Shown one piece after another: positions 19,474 through 38,216 of a DNA stretch of 64,000 nucleotides. This DNA comes from Gracilinema caldarium (GTDB lineage: Bacteria; Spirochaetota; Spirochaetia; Treponematales; Breznakiellaceae): the NCBI RefSeq assembly GCF_029265695.1, contig NZ_JAJUHW010000007.1:1-64000 (forward strand), in the 5' to 3' direction. The notes beneath the pieces are model-generated. The model was not told the origin of the DNA, ran no database searches, and saw nothing but the letters and a program-made list of their open reading frames with translations. The position numbers and the translations under genes were made by a program. Every line of letters begins with the position of its first letter. Position 1 is the stretch's first letter.

Positions 19474-21014
19474 ACCGGATAGTGGACAGCCTCGTCGGCG
19501 GGGCTGAGGAGGTACAGACTGAGCGGGAGCGAAACCGCAGGCTTGAGCGGGCAAAGCGAGATTTTGGTTACTTTTGCCGCACGTATCTCGCGGACTACTT
19601 CTATACCGAACCTGCAGAGTACCAGCGACTCCTTTATGAAGTGGCCGATACTCGGAGCCTGTCCACAGATCTTGCAGAAAAACTGAGAGGCTTTATACGA
19701 GAAAAGTATTGGCCACTGGTAAAACCAATCAAAGATCTTGCCGGTGCGATGTTCATTGAGCCCCGTGAGCACGGGAAAACCGTCCGCTGGAGCTTTGCGT
19801 ATCCTCTCTGGCAGGTGCTCTCCGGGAAAAGCCGCTATGTGCTCCTTATCGGGGCAAGCCAAAACGCTGCGCAGGAAAACCTTATCAATATCAGGACGGA
19901 ACTTGAAGAGAACGACCTTCTCCTTGAAGACTTTGGGGATCTCCGGGGCGACCGCTGGAGCGATGCCCGCATCGAACTAAAGAATGGCACCTGCATACAG
20001 GCAAAAGGCGCCGGGGCGAGCATGCGCGGTACCCGATTCCGGCAGTACCGGCCGGACCTCATCGTCCTCGACGATATCCTTAAAGACGACGCGGTCGATT
20101 CCCCGGCTACCCGGAGTAAGATTCACCGCTGGCTCAAGCGGGTTGTGTTTAACTTGGGAAAGACCGCCTTTATCGTGTGGGTCAACACAATTTTCCATAG
20201 CGACGACCCCATAAGCCGCCTCTTACGGGAACTGGAAGACGGATCCCTTAAACGCTGGATTGCGGTGCGCCTTTCCTGCTTTAAGCCCGACGGAACGCCC
20301 CTCTGGCCAGAGAACTGGCCGCAGACAGTGCTCGAAGAAAAGCGGCAGGTTCTGGGGAGCGACGTGTTTAGCACCGAGTACGAGAATGAGCCGCTTTCCG
20401 ACGAGGAGCGGATTATAAAGCCCGAATGGATCCAAGCGCACATATACTTGCCTGCAGAGCTCCCTGCAGGGCTCCGGTACTTTGCCGGGGTAGACCCCGC
20501 GGCAGGAAAGCATGACCACACGGCCATTGTCTCAGTAGGTGTCGACCGATCGGGCGTTATTTGGGAAGTAGACTCCTGGGCGGCTACCTGCTCAGAGGAC
20601 GAGACGGTGACCCAGCTTATCACGAAGCACAAGCGGTTTAAGTACGCGCTTATCGCCTGGGAAGAGGTGTCCTTCACGAATATCTATGCCCGCTACGTTA
20701 TGCGGATGGCCGCAGCAGAGAATGTGTATCTACCCATAAAGACCGTAAAGGCCGGCACCGAAAGCAAGGTACTCCGGGTACGCTCCATATCGCCTTTAAT
20801 CGAAAACGGGCTTATCCGGTTCCGGGACCGGGGAAACCGGGAGCTTATCGAAGAACTTACAAGCTTTCCCAAAGGCCGATTCGACGATTTGCCGGATGCG
20901 CTGGCTTACGCGGTCGGTATAATCACCCGGGCGGCGGAAGTCCCCCAGGTAGCACCAATAAGGCGCATAGCACCATCCTTAGCACAGCAAACCTTACGAG
21001 GGTATAGACAATGA
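19470..21014 (+). CDS. Terminase large subunit (Mu gp28-like)
   Basis: The 514-residue DNA-packaging motor. The ATPase half has a Walker A-like PREHGKT (about 93-99) and Walker B DLIVLDDI (about 193-200). The C-terminal nuclease half has FAGVDPAAGKHDHTAIVS (about 336-353) and the acidic RFDDLPDALAYAVG (about 470-484). Mu packages by the headful mechanism starting from the left end, so a pac-like site near 7.9 kb is expected. It overlaps neighbouring genes by 4 bp on both sides. Confidence 0.9.
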   Translation: MNRIVDSLVGGAEEVQTERERNRRLERAKRDFGYFCRTYLADYFYTEPAEYQRLLYEVADTRSLSTDLAEKLRGFIREKYWPLVKPIKDLAGAMFIEPREHGKTVRWSFAYPLWQVLSGKSRYVLLIGASQNAAQENLINIRTELEENDLLLEDFGDLRGDRWSDARIELKNGTCIQAKGAGASMRGTRFRQYRPDLIVLDDILKDDAVDSPATRSKIHRWLKRVVFNLGKTAFIVWVNTIFHSDDPISRLLRELEDGSLKRWIAVRLSCFKPDGTPLWPENWPQTVLEEKRQVLGSDVFSTEYENEPLSDEERIIKPEWIQAHIYLPAELPAGLRYFAGVDPAAGKHDHTAIVSVGVDRSGVIWEVDSWAATCSEDETVTQLITKHKRFKYALIAWEEVSFTNIYARYVMRMAAAENVYLPIKTVKAGTESKVLRVRSISPLIENGLIRFRDRGNRELIEELTSFPKGRFDDLPDALAYAVGIITRAAEVPQVAPIRRIAPSLAQQTLRGYRQ

Positions 21015-22255
21015 AACAGACAAGTAAACCAAAAACCGAACAGCTTTCCCTGCGAATTATTTCCTCTACAGATCTTTTCACTTCATTTATTGGCTACATG
21101 CCTAACCCCGACGAGGTACTCCGGGATACGGGCGAGCGGATTACCGTGTATCGGGAGATGCGCACCGATCCCAGAATTAAGAGCCTCTTAGCCCTGGTAA
21201 AAAGCTCGGTACTGGAATATACGCCCCGGATTGAACAGGGAGATGCCCGGACTGCGGTATTTGAATTTATCAATAAGACTGTGGATCAAGCCCTGCTCTA
21301 TGGTCTTGAAAAGCGGTTGTTATCAGCCGTCGATTATGGCTATAGCGTCGTGGAACTGGTGTGGAAAAACGAGAACGGATGGTGGCTCCCTGACGATGTG
21401 GTGCTTCGGAAGCCCGAACGCTTTGTCTTTGATGCAGAGGGGCGTCTTAAATACAAAGACGTCTCTACCGGAGCGCTTATAGACCTCTATGACCAGGCCT
21501 ATAAATGGCTCGTCTATCGCTATGATAAAGACGCGGAAAACCCTTATGGGACCAGTGCGCTCAAATCTTGCTACTGGGCATGGAAGTTTAAGAAGGCTGG
21601 GAGCCAGTTCTGGATCATGGCAGCGGAAAAGTTTTCTGTGCCCTCAATTCTCGCCCTTTTTGATACTTCAGAACCGGAGGATAAAATTCGGGAGCGGGCC
21701 CTGCATCTTTCAGAGCTCCTTTCAACGGTGCAATCCGGCTCCGGGGCAGCACTTGCTAACATTAAAGACGTCAAGCTTCTCACGAGCCCCGAAAAGGTAA
21801 GCGAGTTCCGTTCACTCATGGAGTGGTGCGACCAGCAGATTAGCTATGGCATTACTGGGCAGAGCCTTGCCACTCAGGAGGCAGAGTTCGGAAGCCGGGC
21901 CCAGGCCTCGGTACATAGCGATGTATTAAAGACCCTTGCGAAAGGGGTTTGCAGGGAACTCTCTGAGGTGCTCCAGCGGCTCGTTTCCTATGTAGTGGAA
22001 CTCAACTATGGCCCTGGCGAAGCGGATCCCCTTATTCGCTTTGACCTCGATGAACACGCTACCTGGGATGAACTTGTCCAGGCCATTGACCGGGGAATTC
22101 CCGTATCAAAGAACGCTCTCTATAACCGCTACGGCGTCCCCAAGCCCGCAAGCGACGAGGACGCTTTTGTGCGTCAAACAAGTGCAGCTTTAGATCCGCT
22201 TGCCCTAGCCATGGCCGATGAGAGTAAAAAAAAAGTCCGCAGGACAATATTTTAG
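21011..22255 (+). CDS. Portal protein (DUF935, Mu gp29-like), short 0-frame product
   Basis: A 414-residue portal, the ring through which DNA enters the capsid. The opening region with FIGYMPNPDEVLRDTGERIT and the middle EPEDKIRERALHLSELLSTV are DUF935 features. Relatives are usually about 500 residues, and the missing C-terminal helices are encoded downstream in the -1 frame. The junction is a run of nine A (22226-22234) just before the stop. A -1 slip would join the portal to its lost tail and to the following MuF-type domain in one product of about 880 residues. Confidence 0.85.
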   Translation: MKQTSKPKTEQLSLRIISSTDLFTSFIGYMPNPDEVLRDTGERITVYREMRTDPRIKSLLALVKSSVLEYTPRIEQGDARTAVFEFINKTVDQALLYGLEKRLLSAVDYGYSVVELVWKNENGWWLPDDVVLRKPERFVFDAEGRLKYKDVSTGALIDLYDQAYKWLVYRYDKDAENPYGTSALKSCYWAWKFKKAGSQFWIMAAEKFSVPSILALFDTSEPEDKIRERALHLSELLSTVQSGSGAALANIKDVKLLTSPEKVSEFRSLMEWCDQQISYGITGQSLATQEAEFGSRAQASVHSDVLKTLAKGVCRELSEVLQRLVSYVVELNYGPGEADPLIRFDLDEHATWDELVQAIDRGIPVSKNALYNRYGVPKPASDEDAFVRQTSAALDPLALAMADESKKKVRRTIF

Positions 22256-22461
22256 ACCTTGAGGAAGACGAACGTAAAAAGCTGTCAGAACTGGACCGCC
22301 TGGCTCTCCGGGCCCGGGAAGCAACACTGCCCCGGATAGGAAAAGCACTGGCCGAATGGGTCCACGCTCTCTCGCCAGACGGATCCCTGCCGTCGCTTGA
22401 AGCCCTCAAGGCTGCTTCATTCCCCGACGCTGCGAAAGGCTTGATTCAGGAGACTGAGCGG

Positions 22462-23658
22462 ATGCTCGCCGGGGCAATTTTGCTTGGCATGGACCATGCG
22501 GAGCGGGGACTCCGTTTGGCAGACCCGGACCCGGAATATACCCCTATTCCCTTTGAAGAAGCTATTAAATTCCTAAAAGCCCGTGTGAGCCTTACCAAGG
22601 CGGAGTGGGTGGCCCTGGAGCCAAAGCTTGCTTTCCGCGCTTTCACTTTGGCAAAGCTTACCCAGTGCGACTGCATCGAAGCGGTCCGCGGCAGGCTCGT
22701 CACGGCACTGGAAAAAGGAGATGGCTTTGAGCAACTTTGGAACGACGTAAAAACCATTGCCGAATCGGATGGAGCGACCATCAAACCCGGCTACTGGGAA
22801 ACGGTGTATCGCACTAATATTCAGACCTCCTACAACGCCGGGCGCCGTATGCAGTTTGACCGCTCCCCTCCCGCAGCGCTTGCCCTTATGGTGCTGGAAG
22901 ACGAGCGCACAAGCGATATCTGCCGCCCCCTTGCCGGGCTTGTCCTCCCCTACAATCATCCCTTCTGGGAAGACCACTGGCCGCCATTTCACTTCAACTG
23001 CCGAACCACTGTGCGTGGAATCTATGAAGATGAATTGGGCCAGGTTCCAGTGCAGAACATTCCCATGAAAAAGCTCCGTAAGGAGTTTAAACCCCAGAGT
23101 GGGTTTGGGGAGAATCCGCTTCAAAAACAGACCTTTTGGAAATTGACGCAACCAATGGTTGATAGAATTAAAAAATATGGCATTGTGGAAGAGTTGCGTG
23201 CTTTTGCTAAAACCCTTGGGTTTAATTATGATCCGGTCATTGGCTCTGCATTAGTGCAACAAGGGATTATTGTTCAGGTTGCACCAATCAAAGGCAATAT
23301 CGTAGAAGAGCGTCAAAAGATTAGAGCGTATTTAAATTCTCTTAAGGGAAGTATTTTCTATAATGAGCATATACAGGGGCCTATTAGGATTACCAATAAT
23401 GGTATTAGAAAAGCTATATCCTTATCGGGAGATCCTAAAAAGCTAGCTGCTCTTGGTAATTTACCTGCACTGCTTGAAAATATGAGCCTCATATCAACCG
23501 AGCCTGATAAGAGTAATAGCCCAGATATAATCGAGATTATAAAAGCTAAGGCTATTGTAGAAATTGGACAAGAGAAGCATGTGTTCAATCTTGTTCTTAA
23601 GCGTTTAAAATCAAAAGAATTGCAATTTTATGATATAGCAACGTATGTTATAAAATAA
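22462..23658 (+). CDS. MuF/gp30-like head morphogenesis protein with C-terminal LPD-like domain
   Basis: About 398 residues from ATG 22462, which has AGGAG at 22448-22452. The frame is open further back to about 22228 and there encodes the portal C-terminal helices. Residues after about 25 form the SPP1 gp7/Mu F head domain (HFNCRTTVRGIYEDELG with the upstream DERTSDICRPLAG). The last about 120 residues (IRITNNGIRKAISLSG onward) look like a large polyvalent-protein-associated domain of the kind fused to MuF proteins. The 3' third is more AT-rich than the rest, suggesting a swapped module. A 10-bp hairpin follows the stop. Confidence 0.75.
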   Translation: MLAGAILLGMDHAERGLRLADPDPEYTPIPFEEAIKFLKARVSLTKAEWVALEPKLAFRAFTLAKLTQCDCIEAVRGRLVTALEKGDGFEQLWNDVKTIAESDGATIKPGYWETVYRTNIQTSYNAGRRMQFDRSPPAALALMVLEDERTSDICRPLAGLVLPYNHPFWEDHWPPFHFNCRTTVRGIYEDELGQVPVQNIPMKKLRKEFKPQSGFGENPLQKQTFWKLTQPMVDRIKKYGIVEELRAFAKTLGFNYDPVIGSALVQQGIIVQVAPIKGNIVEERQKIRAYLNSLKGSIFYNEHIQGPIRITNNGIRKAISLSGDPKKLAALGNLPALLENMSLISTEPDKSNSPDIIEIIKAKAIVEIGQEKHVFNLVLKRLKSKELQFYDIATYVIK

Positions 23659-28058: not shown

Positions 28059-28733
28059 ATGGCGGCGGAAATGCTTACCCTAATCGGGGACGACGCAACC
28101 ATCGAAAAAGTAGAGTTTGGCACCGAACAAGTCGGTGATGGGACCAAAACCTTCGACACCCTCGCCGGAGGCACCGGCAAAGGAAAAGGAGAATGGCTTA
28201 TCACCGCTAAAGCGGCAACAGGATCAATATTTGGAAGCCTTAAAGTCGGCGATCTTTTCCCCGCCGATGGGACCGAGATCCCCGCGGTAGGCGACAAGGC
28301 AAAACTCGTAACCGCGACCCCATTCCTGGATGCCACGAGTTGGACTGCGAGTTTTTCTGCAAAAGAGGTAGAGACTACTCGGCTTATCAATACCATGCAG
28401 ACCTACCGCAAGGGCAAGGCTGATGCGGAGGGCGCCGTAAAAGGTATATTTACTCTCGGTGTAACCGGAGAGCCCGGCGGTCTCCTCAATCAGTTCGTTA
28501 AGATCGTAAAAAAAGACAGCAGCTCCGTGACGGTGAGCGAGATCAACTCCGCTCCGATCTACATCCGGGGTGTTATCCGCAACACCAACAAGAGCGGCGA
28601 GACCCTGGCTTTCCTCTTTGCCCAGATTGAGCTGTATGGCGTCAACCTCGGAGCAGAATCTGGCAACAAGCAGGAGTACAGCTCCAAGTTCCGCTTTGTA
28701 TCGGATCCTGTCTACTACGAACGAACCATTTAA
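28059..28733 (+). CDS. Major tail tube protein
   Basis: A 224-residue, Gly/Thr/Ala-rich beta protein (AAEMLTLIGDDATIEKVEFG at the start, SKFRFVSDPVYYERTI at the end). It is placed directly before the frameshifted tail chaperone and tape-measure genes, which marks it as the siphovirus tail tube subunit. There is no sheath gene anywhere in the module. RBS GGAGG precedes the ATG at 28059. Confidence 0.72.
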   Translation: MAAEMLTLIGDDATIEKVEFGTEQVGDGTKTFDTLAGGTGKGKGEWLITAKAATGSIFGSLKVGDLFPADGTEIPAVGDKAKLVTATPFLDATSWTASFSAKEVETTRLINTMQTYRKGKADAEGAVKGIFTLGVTGEPGGLLNQFVKIVKKDSSSVTVSEINSAPIYIRGVIRNTNKSGETLAFLFAQIELYGVNLGAESGNKQEYSSKFRFVSDPVYYERTI

Positions 28734-28746
28734 CTAAGGAGTAGCT

Positions 28747-29139
28747 ATGGAACTTGATTTTAGCTCTAAACTAACCTACGTTCCCAAATTTAATGGCAAT
28801 AGAGAAGCCTCGGCCGCTGAACAATTTACCGTCGTGTATCGAAATCCAACCCCAGCACTAAAGTCCCGCCTCCTTCCGCGACCTGAGCTCCGCTTCCGTA
28901 TCGACAACGAGGGCCGGGTTGCAGGTGGCGAGACCATTGTATCTCAAGACCGCAAAGCAATTATCGACGGCATGCTTGTACGCATCGATGGCCTCTCCTA
29001 CAAGCTTGACGGCGAAACAAAACTGATTACCGACGCCAAGACGCTCTGGGAGGCTCCTATCGTGTTCGACGAGCTTATCGATGAGCTCGCTGATCACTTT
29101 AGAAACGAACTTGAAAAGAAGGTAGATCAAAAAAACTGA
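28747..29139 (+). CDS. Tail assembly chaperone G
   Basis: A 130-residue protein (MELDFSSKLTYVPKFNGNRE at the start) made when ribosomes do not shift. It ends at TGA 29137-29139, directly after the slippery sequence A_AAA_AAC (29130-29136). With the -1 frame protein below it forms the G/GT pair that coats the tape measure during tail assembly in lambda-like phages. The functional assignment rests on the frameshift and on the position before the tape measure; sequence similarity to lambda G is not apparent by eye. Confidence 0.8.
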   Translation: MELDFSSKLTYVPKFNGNREASAAEQFTVVYRNPTPALKSRLLPRPELRFRIDNEGRVAGGETIVSQDRKAIIDGMLVRIDGLSYKLDGETKLITDAKTLWEAPIVFDELIDELADHFRNELEKKVDQKN

Positions 29140-29172
29140 GAATCGCTTACCGTCTCTTCAGGGACGGTAAGC
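29130..29172 (+). promoter_or_regulatory. Programmed -1 frameshift signal
   Basis: Heptamer A_AAA_AAC in the 0-frame (29130-29136), stop TGA directly after it and an 8-nt spacer. A 12-bp stem follows (29145-29156 with 29161-29172: ten Watson-Crick pairs GCTTACCGTC/GACGGTAAGC plus U-G and C-G) closed by a UUCA loop. All elements match known -1 shift sites. Confidence 0.92.
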
Positions 29173-29456
29173 ATCAAGCAAAAGTGCGGCCGGAACGGCT
29201 CGACGCTCCGCTTTCTACCGGCGTCACCGATCCGGCTACCGGGGAGCCCGTGTTTATCACCTACCGGGAGATCCCTAAATATGTAAACGATGAGTTTTTC
29301 CAGGCCTATAGCTGGTATGCGCTGGTAAAACTCCTTGAGTATCCGCCCTATCCCGGCGGATGGATGGACTGGCCGGCAGTGGCGGTCGATGTGCTTGCGG
29401 CCTTTACCCTTGAGCAGAATCTTATGGAGCAGGAAGCCCTGGCAGAAAAGAAATGA
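29136..29456 (+). CDS. T domain of the G-T frameshift product
   Basis: Reached by a -1 slip on A_AAA_AAC, this frame continues KKLRIAYRLFRDGKHQAKVR and then RPERLDAPLSTGV to TGA 29456, adding 106 residues to G (total about 236). An internal ATG at 29184 exists but has no ribosome site, in line with expression only by shifting. It overlaps the tape-measure start by 4 bp. In lambda the T part binds the tape measure/tube, and only a small fraction of ribosomes shift. Confidence 0.82.
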   Translation: MRIAYRLFRDGKHQAKVRPERLDAPLSTGVTDPATGEPVFITYREIPKYVNDEFFQAYSWYALVKLLEYPPYPGGWMDWPAVAVDVLAAFTLEQNLMEQEALAEKK

Positions 29457-32400
29457 CCGAAGAAAAACTCCGACTTGAAATACAAATCGAAGTCCAGAAA
29501 GCCCTGGCCAGTCTCAAGCAAACGCAGACAGACATTAAAAAACTGTCCCAGGACGTTAAAAGCCTGGGACCTTCTACCGAACAGACCAAGGCAATAATTG
29601 CCAATCTTAATAAAGAAATTCAGTCATCCGCCCAGTTTGCCCGTCTTATGGGAAACGAAGCACAGGGTCTTAAAGAAAAACAGCAAGCCCTGCAGGCAGC
29701 GATGCGTCAGCTTATCGACCAGGGCCTGGATCCCCAATCTGAACAGCTCCAAGACTTAAAGCGCCAGTATGATGAAACTGGCGAAAAGCTTGAAAATATG
29801 GGGGAAGGGGCTAACGCACTAGAAGCAAAACTCATGAAGCTTGCCGAATCGGGGACCTTTGCCATCATGGCAAAGCAGGTTGCCCAGTTTGCGGCAGCGT
29901 CTGTCACCGCCTTTGCAGAAGCCGAGCAGTCCGCTAAGCGCCTCGAGATGGCCATGGCAATGCGTGGCTCCGCTGACGGCGCAGAACGGATTGCTAAGTT
30001 TGCCTCAGAGCTGCAAACCCTCACAGGAGCAAGCGACGATTACGTAAAGCAGCTCGCCGCCGAGCTTGCTATGCAGGGCAAAAGCGAATCGCAGATAAAG
30101 CAGATCCTTACCGTTGCGGCAGACCTATCAGCGGTGACGGGACAAGACCTCGCATCCAGCGTCCAGGAACTCACCGGCACCCTCTCTGGTATGGTTGGCC
30201 ACATAGGCAGGTCTATTCCGCAACTTAAAGACCTCACCGAGGAAGAGCTCAAGGCGGGCAAGGCTATTGAAATTGTAGGGCGGCTCTATGCCGGCTCCGC
30301 ACAGACCATGAGCAGCACCAGCGCCGTTGCATTTAAGCGCATGAAGGAAACAGTAGGAGACCTATCAGAGGCGATCGGCGAAGTGCTTGCCCCAGTCTTT
30401 ACCCTTGCTGCAAATGCGGTTACCACCCTCGCAGGAGCAATGGCCAATGCGGGGCCTGTAGTAAAGATGGTCATGGGAGGAGCAGTAGCAGCTTTGGCTG
30501 CGGGTCTTGCAGCATTGGCCATAAAAGCGGGCATCGCTGCCGCTGCTCAGTGGACCCACTTTGCAGCACTCCAGGCTGTAAATGCCGCAATGGCCGTTAC
30601 CAACCCTCTGCTTATCGCTGGTATCGCTGCTGCTACCGCTGCGGCTGTCGCCGTTACCGCGTACGCCGTATCGCAGGCTAATGCTGCCAAGGCAACCTCC
30701 TCCGGGATTGATGCCCACAATACCGCCGCAAAAAGTTTTGACGCCACCGCCACTGCCGTAGACCGGGCAAAAAAAGCCCTCGAAGCATACAAGAACAGCC
30801 TTAAGGATAAATCTATTGCCGAGCTCCAGGCAACCATGGCCACCCTCCAGGGCCAGCTTGTGGATTATCACTCCAAAGCCGCTTACTCCCGCTACTACAT
30901 GGAGGCCATAGCGGATACCCAGAACCAAATCAAAGTCGTCGAAGCCCTCTTGCAGCAGAAGAAGGATGAGGTTGCCAGCAAGTGGAAGCAGCAATGGGCC
31001 GAAACCTATCAACAGTTCCAGGCCCAGCAGAGCGGCGACCCCTATGCAGAAATCGAGCTGGAGCGGAAGAAAAAGCTCGAAGACGCTGCCCAAGCCTATA
31101 TCGGTAAGGCAAACAAGGAAACCATCGACCAGATAAACACCTACTACGATGCCGAGCGTCGTAAAGTAGCCCAGTCCATTGCCCTTGCAGAACGGGAGCA
31201 ACTCGCAAAAATCACCGAGACCCGAATTGACGACCTCGAGCTTGAGCGGGATAAGACTCTTGCATCCTTCCGGGGCACCGAAGAAGCCCGCTCACAAATT
31301 GCTGCATACTATGAACGCCTTATTACCCAGACAAAACAGGATGAGGCAAAGAAAGCCGCTCAGGCAGCACAAGAAAGTACACTGAAAAACGCAGAATTTG
31401 AAGCGTCACTTACTGAGAGTCGTGTTGATGATCTTAAAGTAGAGATGCAACGGAGGCTCGCGTCTTTTGAAGGAACGGAAGAGCAAAAAGCACAACTTGC
31501 CGCTTGGTATGCTAAAAAAATCAGTGAAACTGAGCAAGACGAGGCCAAAAAAGCTGCCGATGCCCGCATCAAAGCGATGAAAGAAGCCTTTGAGCAACAA
31601 AAAGCCATGGCGCTCCAGAATAAGGATTGGTTTGGCTATGCCAGCGCCGTGGTGCAGGAAAAGGCCGCTAGCGCGGAAGTTGGAAAAATGGCGGGCTTTG
31701 CAGGCGGGTTTGCCGCAAACCCAGTACTAATACTCATCGAAGCGGCCGCTGACTTCGTGCTTTCTATCGAGAATGTAACAAAAGTTCTTAATCCCTTCAA
31801 AACTATTTTTGAAGGCGCTCGAACACTTTTGGAGCCCCTTATAAACGATGCATTACAGCCCCTGGTGGATCTCCTTACCGATGTGGGCGAGATACTCGCA
31901 CAGGTGCTCGCCCCTATCATCAGCAGTCTCGCCATAGGCCTGCGGCTCTTTGCAGCGGTTTTGCAGGTAGCGCAATTGCCGATTAAGTTTCTGGGACAGG
32001 CCCTTGCCTGGCTCAATGATAGGGTCATTGTCCCGGTTGGGAACGCTATCATCGACCTCATCAATGGGGTTATTGGGGCCATAAACTGGGCCCTTGGCTG
32101 GGCAGGGGTTAATATCAGCTACATTGAGCGCCTCAAAACAACCACAGAAATTGCTGAGCAAGAAGCGATTATAAAAAAGAAAATGGAGGAAATCTCCGAC
32201 CAGATGCAGGCCCTCCGGGACGACTTTTCCCGCCGACGGCAGGAAATAAACGACGCATACCAGAAAAACCTGTCGAGTCTGCGAAAACTCCTTGAAATTG
32301 GCGCCTTAGGAGAAGAGGAGTACGCCCGCCGGGTAACGACCCTCAATGTCCAGAAAGAACAGGCAATCGCGTTACTCGATCAAACCGAAAAGAGCCAGCT

Positions 32401-32929
32401 CACGGAGCTTCAGAAAATCTACGACCAGCTCAGCAAGGGAATCAATGTATACACCCAGAACGGCAGTGCCCCATCCTCATCAAGCAGTGCCCCGAATCCT
32501 AATAATACGAGTGCTCTCCAGGATGCCGCAATTGGTGCGGTCTCTGGAGCCGCAGTAGGGGCAGGCATTGGAAGTATCATTCCGGGTATTGGAACGGCAA
32601 TTGGCGCGGCTGTTGGCGGCGTCGTTGGTACCATCGGTGGGGCTATTGGTGGTCTCTTTGGCTGGTGGGACGTTGGAGCTGTCGAGTTGCCACAGGATAT
32701 GGCCGGTGTAGTGCACAAAGGCGAAATGATCGTCCCCGCAACCTTTGCTGAGGGTATCCGCTCTGGAAAACTCACGCTCGGATCAGGGGTATCCTCAGGG
32801 AGAGCTGAGGTCTACAACATCACCGTCAACGTAGAAGGCTCTGTAAAAACCGAATCAGACCTTGTGGACTCTATTGCCCTTGCGCTGGCTAAAAAACGAT
32901 CTCGCAACTTACTACCCGCAGGAGTCTAG
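29453..32929 (+). CDS. Tail tape-measure protein
   Basis: An 1158-residue protein whose length should set the tail length. The N-terminal about 130 residues are coiled coil, followed by a tail-family core (TGASDDYVKQLAAELAMQGK region) and an Ala-rich hydrophobic segment (about 335-400). Next is a coiled coil with internal near-repeats (TRIDDLELERDKTLASFRGTE and SRVDDLKVEMQRRLASFEGTE-like units, each shortened here). A Gly/Ala-rich membrane-active region lies near 1030-1080. The length suggests a long flexible, non-contractile tail. It overlaps the T frame by 4 bp. Confidence 0.92.
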   Translation: MTEEKLRLEIQIEVQKALASLKQTQTDIKKLSQDVKSLGPSTEQTKAIIANLNKEIQSSAQFARLMGNEAQGLKEKQQALQAAMRQLIDQGLDPQSEQLQDLKRQYDETGEKLENMGEGANALEAKLMKLAESGTFAIMAKQVAQFAAASVTAFAEAEQSAKRLEMAMAMRGSADGAERIAKFASELQTLTGASDDYVKQLAAELAMQGKSESQIKQILTVAADLSAVTGQDLASSVQELTGTLSGMVGHIGRSIPQLKDLTEEELKAGKAIEIVGRLYAGSAQTMSSTSAVAFKRMKETVGDLSEAIGEVLAPVFTLAANAVTTLAGAMANAGPVVKMVMGGAVAALAAGLAALAIKAGIAAAAQWTHFAALQAVNAAMAVTNPLLIAGIAAATAAAVAVTAYAVSQANAAKATSSGIDAHNTAAKSFDATATAVDRAKKALEAYKNSLKDKSIAELQATMATLQGQLVDYHSKAAYSRYYMEAIADTQNQIKVVEALLQQKKDEVASKWKQQWAETYQQFQAQQSGDPYAEIELERKKKLEDAAQAYIGKANKETIDQINTYYDAERRKVAQSIALAEREQLAKITETRIDDLELERDKTLASFRGTEEARSQIAAYYERLITQTKQDEAKKAAQAAQESTLKNAEFEASLTESRVDDLKVEMQRRLASFEGTEEQKAQLAAWYAKKISETEQDEAKKAADARIKAMKEAFEQQKAMALQNKDWFGYASAVVQEKAASAEVGKMAGFAGGFAANPVLILIEAAADFVLSIENVTKVLNPFKTIFEGARTLLEPLINDALQPLVDLLTDVGEILAQVLAPIISSLAIGLRLFAAVLQVAQLPIKFLGQALAWLNDRVIVPVGNAIIDLINGVIGAINWALGWAGVNISYIERLKTTTEIAEQEAIIKKKMEEISDQMQALRDDFSRRRQEINDAYQKNLSSLRKLLEIGALGEEEYARRVTTLNVQKEQAIALLDQTEKSQLTELQKIYDQLSKGINVYTQNGSAPSSSSSAPNPNNTSALQDAAIGAVSGAAVGAGIGSIIPGIGTAIGAAVGGVVGTIGGAIGGLFGWWDVGAVELPQDMAGVVHKGEMIVPATFAEGIRSGKLTLGSGVSSGRAEVYNITVNVEGSVKTESDLVDSIALALAKKRSRNLLPAGV

Positions 32930-36542: not shown

Positions 36543-37733
36543 ATGTCATTATATCGCGTAAAAGATTATGTAGATGACGCCTCTGTTTCCTGGTTTGCTT
36601 TGTTTCATGACGTTAAATCTCCTGGCAAGAGCTTTCTTGAAAAGAAAAACCCATTCTCTTATGACGAAAACAAAATTGTTGTTAAAAAAGATACGGTCAT
36701 ATCCCTTCTTAATGACGAATGGAAGATCTTTACTGTAAAGCAAGATGTTGAATTAAGCGCTGCAGATCTTGATGAAGGAACGTTTCAGGTTGGAGTTGAT
36801 TATTATGTATATCTCTGTGACAATAACGGTGATGGTATCTTTTTGATTAGTGCTAATGCAACTTGCCCATCTGGCTATAATGCTTCCTCGTCCAGAAAAA
36901 TTGGCGGTTTCCATTATGGCCACATTCGCAAAGTTTCCTCAGACGGGCTATGGATCCCGATTGATGGCGCAGGGGTAAAATTTGGGTCTGGATCGCCTAA
37001 TTGGAAAGACAATGTGACTGTCGGCATAATTCCAAATAGCGTCTGGGATCTAAAAAACAGACCGCTCTGTAGCCCCGAAGGAATGGTAAAGGTTGGCCGC
37101 ATCTGGGTTGATATCTATTTGTCGAGTGCTGCAGAGCCAATATCTTTAGAAAGCGGAACGGCGGGGCTGCACATTGCATCTGGCCGATTGCAATCAAAAT
37201 ATGGGCAAGTCCCTGTTTCTGGAACCGAAGGCTTGAACTGGTACTGTTTTCAGGAACTTGCTAGTCGTGCAGGGAAAAGACTCTTGACTTATGGAGAGTG
37301 GATACAGGCCGCGTTTGGCAATCCGCAGGGGCTCGATGGAGCGGATACATATGGATGGACAAAAACGAGTAATAATGGCAGGACTCGGACGGGGTGTCAG
37401 ATAAACACGTCTAATGGCGCTTTCGATCCATCAGGAGGCGTAAAGCCTGCAGCAATCAGCGCGTACAACTGCGTGGACTGCGTGGGAAACCTAGAGGAGT
37501 GGCTGGACGAAATGTCCATCCGGCAAGACTCTACATCTTGGGCCTTGCAGAATGTGTTAGGATCCGGGAAAGGCCAGGCGTATTTGCCGAATGGTTTTGG
37601 GTGCGTTGCATTTATTGCTGGCGCGGACTTGGGCGGTGGCGTCCGTGCGGGGGCTCGGGCGGTGAACGTGTTCCACTCTCCGTGGAACTTGAACACGCGC
37701 ATAGGGTCGCGCCTGGCCTGTGACAGTCTGTAA
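36543..37733 (+). CDS. Receptor-binding tail protein with FGE/C-type-lectin fold (DGR target-like)
   Basis: A 396-residue protein. The C-terminal half has formylglycine-generating-enzyme-like marks: GKRLLTYGEWIQAA (FGE: RLPTEAEWE-type), CVDCVGNLEEWLDE (MxGNVWEW-type) and a final RAGARAVNVF, SPWN, IGSRLACDSL block. This fold and ending are typical of proteins varied by diversity-generating retroelements, including Treponema TvpA. The last about 40 codons are distinctly GC-rich compared with the upstream AT-rich half and would be the variable region. It is the last phage gene, 125 bp from the right end. No reverse transcriptase or template repeat was found in the window. Confidence 0.75.
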   Translation: MSLYRVKDYVDDASVSWFALFHDVKSPGKSFLEKKNPFSYDENKIVVKKDTVISLLNDEWKIFTVKQDVELSAADLDEGTFQVGVDYYVYLCDNNGDGIFLISANATCPSGYNASSSRKIGGFHYGHIRKVSSDGLWIPIDGAGVKFGSGSPNWKDNVTVGIIPNSVWDLKNRPLCSPEGMVKVGRIWVDIYLSSAAEPISLESGTAGLHIASGRLQSKYGQVPVSGTEGLNWYCFQELASRAGKRLLTYGEWIQAAFGNPQGLDGADTYGWTKTSNNGRTRTGCQINTSNGAFDPSGGVKPAAISAYNCVDCVGNLEEWLDEMSIRQDSTSWALQNVLGSGKGQAYLPNGFGCVAFIAGADLGGGVRAGARAVNVFHSPWNLNTRIGSRLACDSL

Positions 37734-38152: not shown

Positions 38153-38216
38153 TTTATTGCTCCTAAGTACATTTATAACTCAATTTTTCAAAAAAAAAAC
38201 ATGAAAAATCATAATA

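Follow-up and report, generated by a model that had tools for sequence, protein, structure and literature searches.

Upstream of the tape-measure gene of a Gracilinema caldarium prophage, in the 64,000-nucleotide stretch of DNA analysed here (the window), two short reading frames in different registers meet at a slippery heptamer. The features of this region, all on the forward strand, are:

28059..28733, + strand: ORF upstream of G, placed as the major tail protein by position only
28747..29139, + strand: probable gpG-like tail assembly chaperone, the 0-frame product (130 aa, ATG start; from the ORF and aligned relatives)
29130..29136, + strand: slippery heptamer A_AAA_AAC, in the correct X_XXY_YYZ register for the 0 frame of ORF 28747-29139
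29137..29139, + strand: 0-frame UGA stop, abutting the heptamer (from sequence)
29136..29456, + strand: -1 frame extension T (106 aa, then a stop codon; from translation, with no conserved start codon)
29145..29172, + strand: putative stimulatory hairpin, arms 29145-29156 and 29161-29172, loop 29157-29160 (from folding and comparative tests)
29453..32929, + strand: tape-measure protein (1158 aa; PHROG tail length tape measure, best E 6.9e-15)

Inspection of the junction shows that ORF 28747-29139 ends in the codons CAA AAA AAC TGA, and that an 8-nt spacer (TGAGAATC, 29137-29144) separates the heptamer from two complementary arms, GCTTACCGTCTC (29145-29156) and GGGACGGTAAGC (29161-29172), which pair over 12 bp around a TTCA (UUCA) loop. 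Folding of 29145-29172 yields -22.3 kcal/mol (z = -4.4), a stability equalled by none of 200 shuffled sequences. The T frame closes at a TGA (29454-29456) that overlaps the ATG of the tape-measure ORF at 29453. An initial annotation of this DNA had described an in-frame A_AAA_AAC, an immediate stop, an 8-nt spacer and a stem with a UUCA loop, followed by a 106-codon -1 frame ending at the tape-measure start; sequence and folding bear out each of these elements. The AAAAAAC motif by itself is frequent, occurring 38 times in the window. A scan of both strands for all X_XXY_YYZ sites with a stop close by and a long -1 frame returned nine loose candidates, only two of which (29130 and 22228) lie where a recognisable phage gene ends. 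AAAAAAC with a stop directly behind it and a long -1 frame makes site 29130 stand out within the window.

The proteins themselves offer few clues to their identity. Pfam and PHROG searches gave no match for the upstream ORF (28059-28733) and no family for G or T, a few single G or T members reaching marginal E-values to unnamed PHROGs; tblastn of G or T against phage records returned nothing informative. A structural model of G (mean pLDDT 72) retrieved a sole PDB entry, the HK97 tail assembly chaperone 2ob9, with a weak score (Z 3.2, rmsd 5.3 for 86 residues, 12% identity), and Foldseek with the same model listed several viral tail assembly chaperones, all among the low-scoring matches. A fold shared between G and the HK97 chaperone is thus a lead, not proof. 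T was modelled with confidence (pLDDT 94), yet a structure search with that model produced no convincing match. Mainly from gene order and the frameshift architecture, together with the weak HK97 fold match, we infer that the product of ORF 28747-29139 is a tail chaperone. Elsewhere in the window, 36543-37733 encodes a tail protein that combines an Mtd second domain with an FGE-sulfatase-like domain, resembling the targets of diversity-generating retroelements.

Conservation of the G-T junction

A second prophage in the same genome, with 76% DNA identity, carries a cassette of identical design. Searches of relatives, of the order and of viral contigs, with uncultured Spirochaeta among the genomes of close relatives, brought together 76 distinct junctions, drawn from spirochaete genomes and viral contigs; because inclusion required an X_XXY_YYZ site at the predicted position, a few distant homologues fall outside this count. 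The heptamer is A_AAA_AAC in 74 junctions, G_GGA_AAC in one and A_AAA_AAA in one. A 0-frame stop follows immediately in 61 of the 76, after one codon in 1, after two codons in 13 and after seven codons in 1, and therefore lies at most two codons past the heptamer in 75/76; all of the immediate stops and all of those two codons downstream belong to A_AAA_AAC junctions. The heptamer codons show a synonymous diversity of 0.0, T codon 12, which lies in the 3' arm of the hairpin, has a value of 0.02, and codons 14-18 reach about 0.9-1.0. Farther afield, distant G/T relatives retain the -1 arrangement at other shift sites, identified by eye: A9 runs (L099-L109), GGGGGAA (L096-L098) and CCCTTTG (L074, L075, L078).

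Gene finders could call a 90-aa ORF from a GTG at 29184, which would allow G and T to be separate overlapping genes, with T translated from that codon or by reinitiation past the UGA. Alignment of the relatives argues otherwise: the GTG is not conserved, and in several relatives one must go more than 120 nt downstream to reach a T-frame start, although T homology begins at residue 1, right at the shift site. No conserved T-frame start codon was found across the relatives, whereas the initial annotation had named a T frame conserved with its own start codon and ribosome site, along with the lack of a shifted peptide, as what would tell against frameshifting. An independent T start was rejected on these grounds, and as separate genes would also leave the invariant heptamer unexplained, we consider this arrangement extremely improbable.

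The downstream hairpin and the proposed frameshift

The hairpin lies within T coding sequence, and its repeat could in principle reflect the encoded protein. When codons were swapped among synonyms within each T gene, the core hairpin pairs formed in 394 +/- 8 cells (maximum 417 in 2000 runs), as compared with 540 of 608 cells in the natural sequences of the 76 junctions, an excess that is not to be read as a probability given that related sequences are non-independent. The pairing is thus not imposed by the amino-acid sequence of T, and protein constraint was ruled out as the source of the repeat. Thirty-seven sequences were also aligned without gaps; there the 12 pairs form in 82.9% of cases, a figure that is not free of bias because most members were picked from carriers of the hairpin, and for which the 76-member counts are the broader measure; sliding the partners by one to three columns lowers the value to 21-44%. 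The same alignment contains 17 pair cells changed on both sides, as against 7.7 +/- 2.1 after shuffling (none of 500 shuffles as high), among them changes of UA to CG, CG to UA and GC to UA.

Examination of individual relatives shows which parts of the element persist. The 12-bp stem of the initial annotation is present in this phage, but only its lower 8-9 bp are conserved, pairs 10-12 being mostly unpaired elsewhere. Relatives that lack the GKH codons pair through a different 3' arm, with the 5' arm fixed 8 nt from the heptamer, and some build the hairpin from alternative codons (GCCTTCC with GGAAGGC, GCGTTC with GAACGC); in three (L071, L120 and L017) the predicted hairpin is weak or absent. 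An RNA structure at a spacing of 8 nt, backed by covariation and by the synonymous shuffle, fits a structure-stimulated -1 signal, for which about 5-9 nt is expected. The hairpin is stable enough that one might instead see in the inverted repeat an attenuator, a terminator or a protein-binding site lying beside the heptamer by coincidence; yet no T run follows the stem, the hairpin begins 7-8 nt past the heptamer in nearly all relatives, and T keeps to the -1 frame, which together leave this account with hardly any credibility.

A more serious competitor is slippage by RNA polymerase, which could add or drop an A within the A7 run such that some mRNAs encode a G-T fusion and the ribosome itself does not slip. 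The A7 run is present in 69/76 relatives, some distant relatives have A9 at the G-T junction, nine As being known to slip efficiently (PMC5009743), and the portal gene of this phage seems to use an A9 run of its own. On the other side, the run is no longer than A6 in six relatives and gives way to GGGAAAC in one, poor polymerase sites that nonetheless obey the heptamer rule; the conserved hairpin lies downstream of the run and is hence untranscribed while the polymerase crosses it; and the A9/T9 sites of the portal-MuF junction, presumed to be of the polymerase type, have no conserved hairpin. The A6-only relatives, the GGGAAAC site and the position of the hairpin thus favour the ribosome over RNA polymerase, and we regard polymerase slippage at the G-T junction as unlikely.

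These data support the frameshift interpretation of the initial annotation, which passed every comparative test applied (how well heptamer, stop, spacer and hairpin are conserved, compensatory changes, and synonymous suppression). As in lambda-type gpG/gpGT pairs, the heptamer lies near the 3' end of G, T is a -1 frame with no conserved start, and the tape-measure gene adjoins downstream. We therefore put at roughly 95% the probability that the site at 29130-29172 is a programmed -1 ribosomal frameshift signal for such a pair, as judged from comparative sequence evidence. By this model, the majority of ribosomes would read CAA AAA AAC UGA in frame and release gpG (130 aa), while a minority would be held up by the hairpin 8 nt ahead, their tRNA-Lys and tRNA-Asn sitting on A_AAA_AAC, and would shift one base back, bypass the UGA and add 106 codons to give gpGT (236 aa). 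If lambda is a guide, the tape-measure protein would be coated by many gpG and few gpGT molecules, the T part recruiting tail-tube subunits.

Tandem slippage of tRNA-Lys and tRNA-Asn would produce a junction that reads mainly QKN-LRIAYR. The KKLRIAYR junction proposed in the initial annotation does not agree with this expectation, and would fit slippage in the P site only or an extra A in the mRNA. The Asp-N junction peptide expected is DQKNLRIAYRLFR, in which Asn would denote tandem ribosomal slippage and Lys would denote P-site or polymerase slippage. In E. coli, A_AAA_AAC is far less shift-prone than A_AAA_AAG (PMC5009743), and frameshift efficiency may accordingly be low; a low level would be enough for the gpG:gpGT ratio, and two other tail-chaperone frameshifts were measured at 6 and 7% (PMC3711429).

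The choice of heptamer may relate to the tRNAs of the host, which encodes both tRNA-Lys(CUU) and tRNA-Lys(UUU) (L140 and L141; G000:C10:14342-14415 and G000:C37:1683-1755). A_AAA_AAG is the shift-prone site in E. coli, which has one lysine tRNA, and a second lysine tRNA has been proposed to disfavour AAG slippage in Thermus (PMC5009743). The near-exclusive use of AAC over AAG appears consistent with this idea, and two lysine tRNAs may lie behind the phages' use of A_AAA_AAC in place of A_AAA_AAG. Loss of queuosine from tRNA-Asn, considered as another cause of the AAC preference, is unsupported: the host carries tgt (TIGR00430), with matches in 36 of the 40 genomes searched. The junctions collected here form a clean natural data set, from hosts that have two lysine tRNAs, for A_AAA_AAC, a weak site in E. 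coli.

The portal-MuF junction

A second candidate recoding site lies farther upstream, in the head module:

21011-22255: Mu-type portal ORF, with an A9 run near its 3' end (22226-22234)
22234-23658: MuF-LPD3 protein frame, -1 relative to the portal, in which about 200 nt pass without an ATG, GTG or TTG

The comparison covered 88 distinct portal-MuF loci. In 81 of them the MuF gene, in the -1 frame, overlaps the end of the portal gene at a homopolymer run (A9 in 48, T9 in 16, A10 in 11, T7 in 5 and T10 in 1), the run being called as the longest within the overlap; distances to the first start vary, and in some relatives a start lies within 10 codons. In two further loci, portal and MuF are fused in one frame. 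PHROG 35074 matches portal and MuF alike, which is consistent with natural portal-MuF fusions. One locus (L157, G010:C279) has a T10 junction with MuF in the +1 frame instead of -1, which may be genuine variation or a fault of the assembly. Apart from the portal run, the window has a single run of at least nine A or T, an A10 (38190-38199) directly beyond the last recognised prophage gene.

No conserved hairpin follows the portal-MuF run among the relatives, and nine As or Ts are a known efficient site of polymerase slippage (PMC5009743). The portal-MuF run thus looks like a second recoding site, at which RNA-polymerase slippage probably gives rise to a portal-MuF fusion. The two junctions provide an internal contrast, a homopolymer without a hairpin against a heptamer with one. 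A broader model, to which we would give even odds, has the late operon use two mechanisms, a ribosomal -1 shift at A_AAA_AAC plus hairpin for gpG/gpGT and RNA-polymerase slippage at bare A9/T9 runs for the portal-MuF fusion, with AAC over AAG as an adaptation to hosts that have a dedicated tRNA-Lys(CUU). We found no earlier report of portal-MuF slippage among open-licence papers, and regard this site as a lead of greater novelty than the G-T frameshift.

Comparison with known systems

In lambda, the slippery heptamer is G_GGA_AAG. The G-T junction described here resembles lambda in its gene order before the tape measure, in placing a -1 heptamer towards the 3' end of G, and in its predicted short G and longer G-T products; it departs from lambda in its A_AAA_AAC heptamer, in a stop that abuts the heptamer in most relatives, and in a strongly conserved hairpin, and no sequence similarity was detected between these G and T proteins and the described chaperone families. 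For lambda gpG/gpGT and the conserved tail-chaperone frameshift, the source is Xu, Hendrix and Duda (2004), as cited in PMC10885494 and PMC4378225, with a review in PMC5009743. Among open-licence papers, we found no report of such a cassette in spirochaete phages. With neither G nor T falling into a Pfam or PHROG family, gpGT will go on being overlooked by annotation in these phages.

Phage Mu and Pseudomonas Mu-like tail genes are also among the nearest known systems. The head module of this prophage is Mu-like (portal PF06074, MuF PF04233, Gp27 PF11985), and the tail chaperone of Mu is recoded as well, but the shift of Mu is described as an exceptional -2 (PMC4378225), whereas the shift proposed here is -1. 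The haloarchaeal virus HCTV-2 uses the same A_AAA_AAC for G-T expression (PMC5009743), in an archaeal virus as opposed to a spirochaete host with two lysine tRNAs. The gpG/gpGT frameshift device is one already known in phages and it is the lineage that is new, the tail-chaperone frameshift being extended here to spirochaete phages whose G and T proteins lie outside the Pfam and PHROG families.
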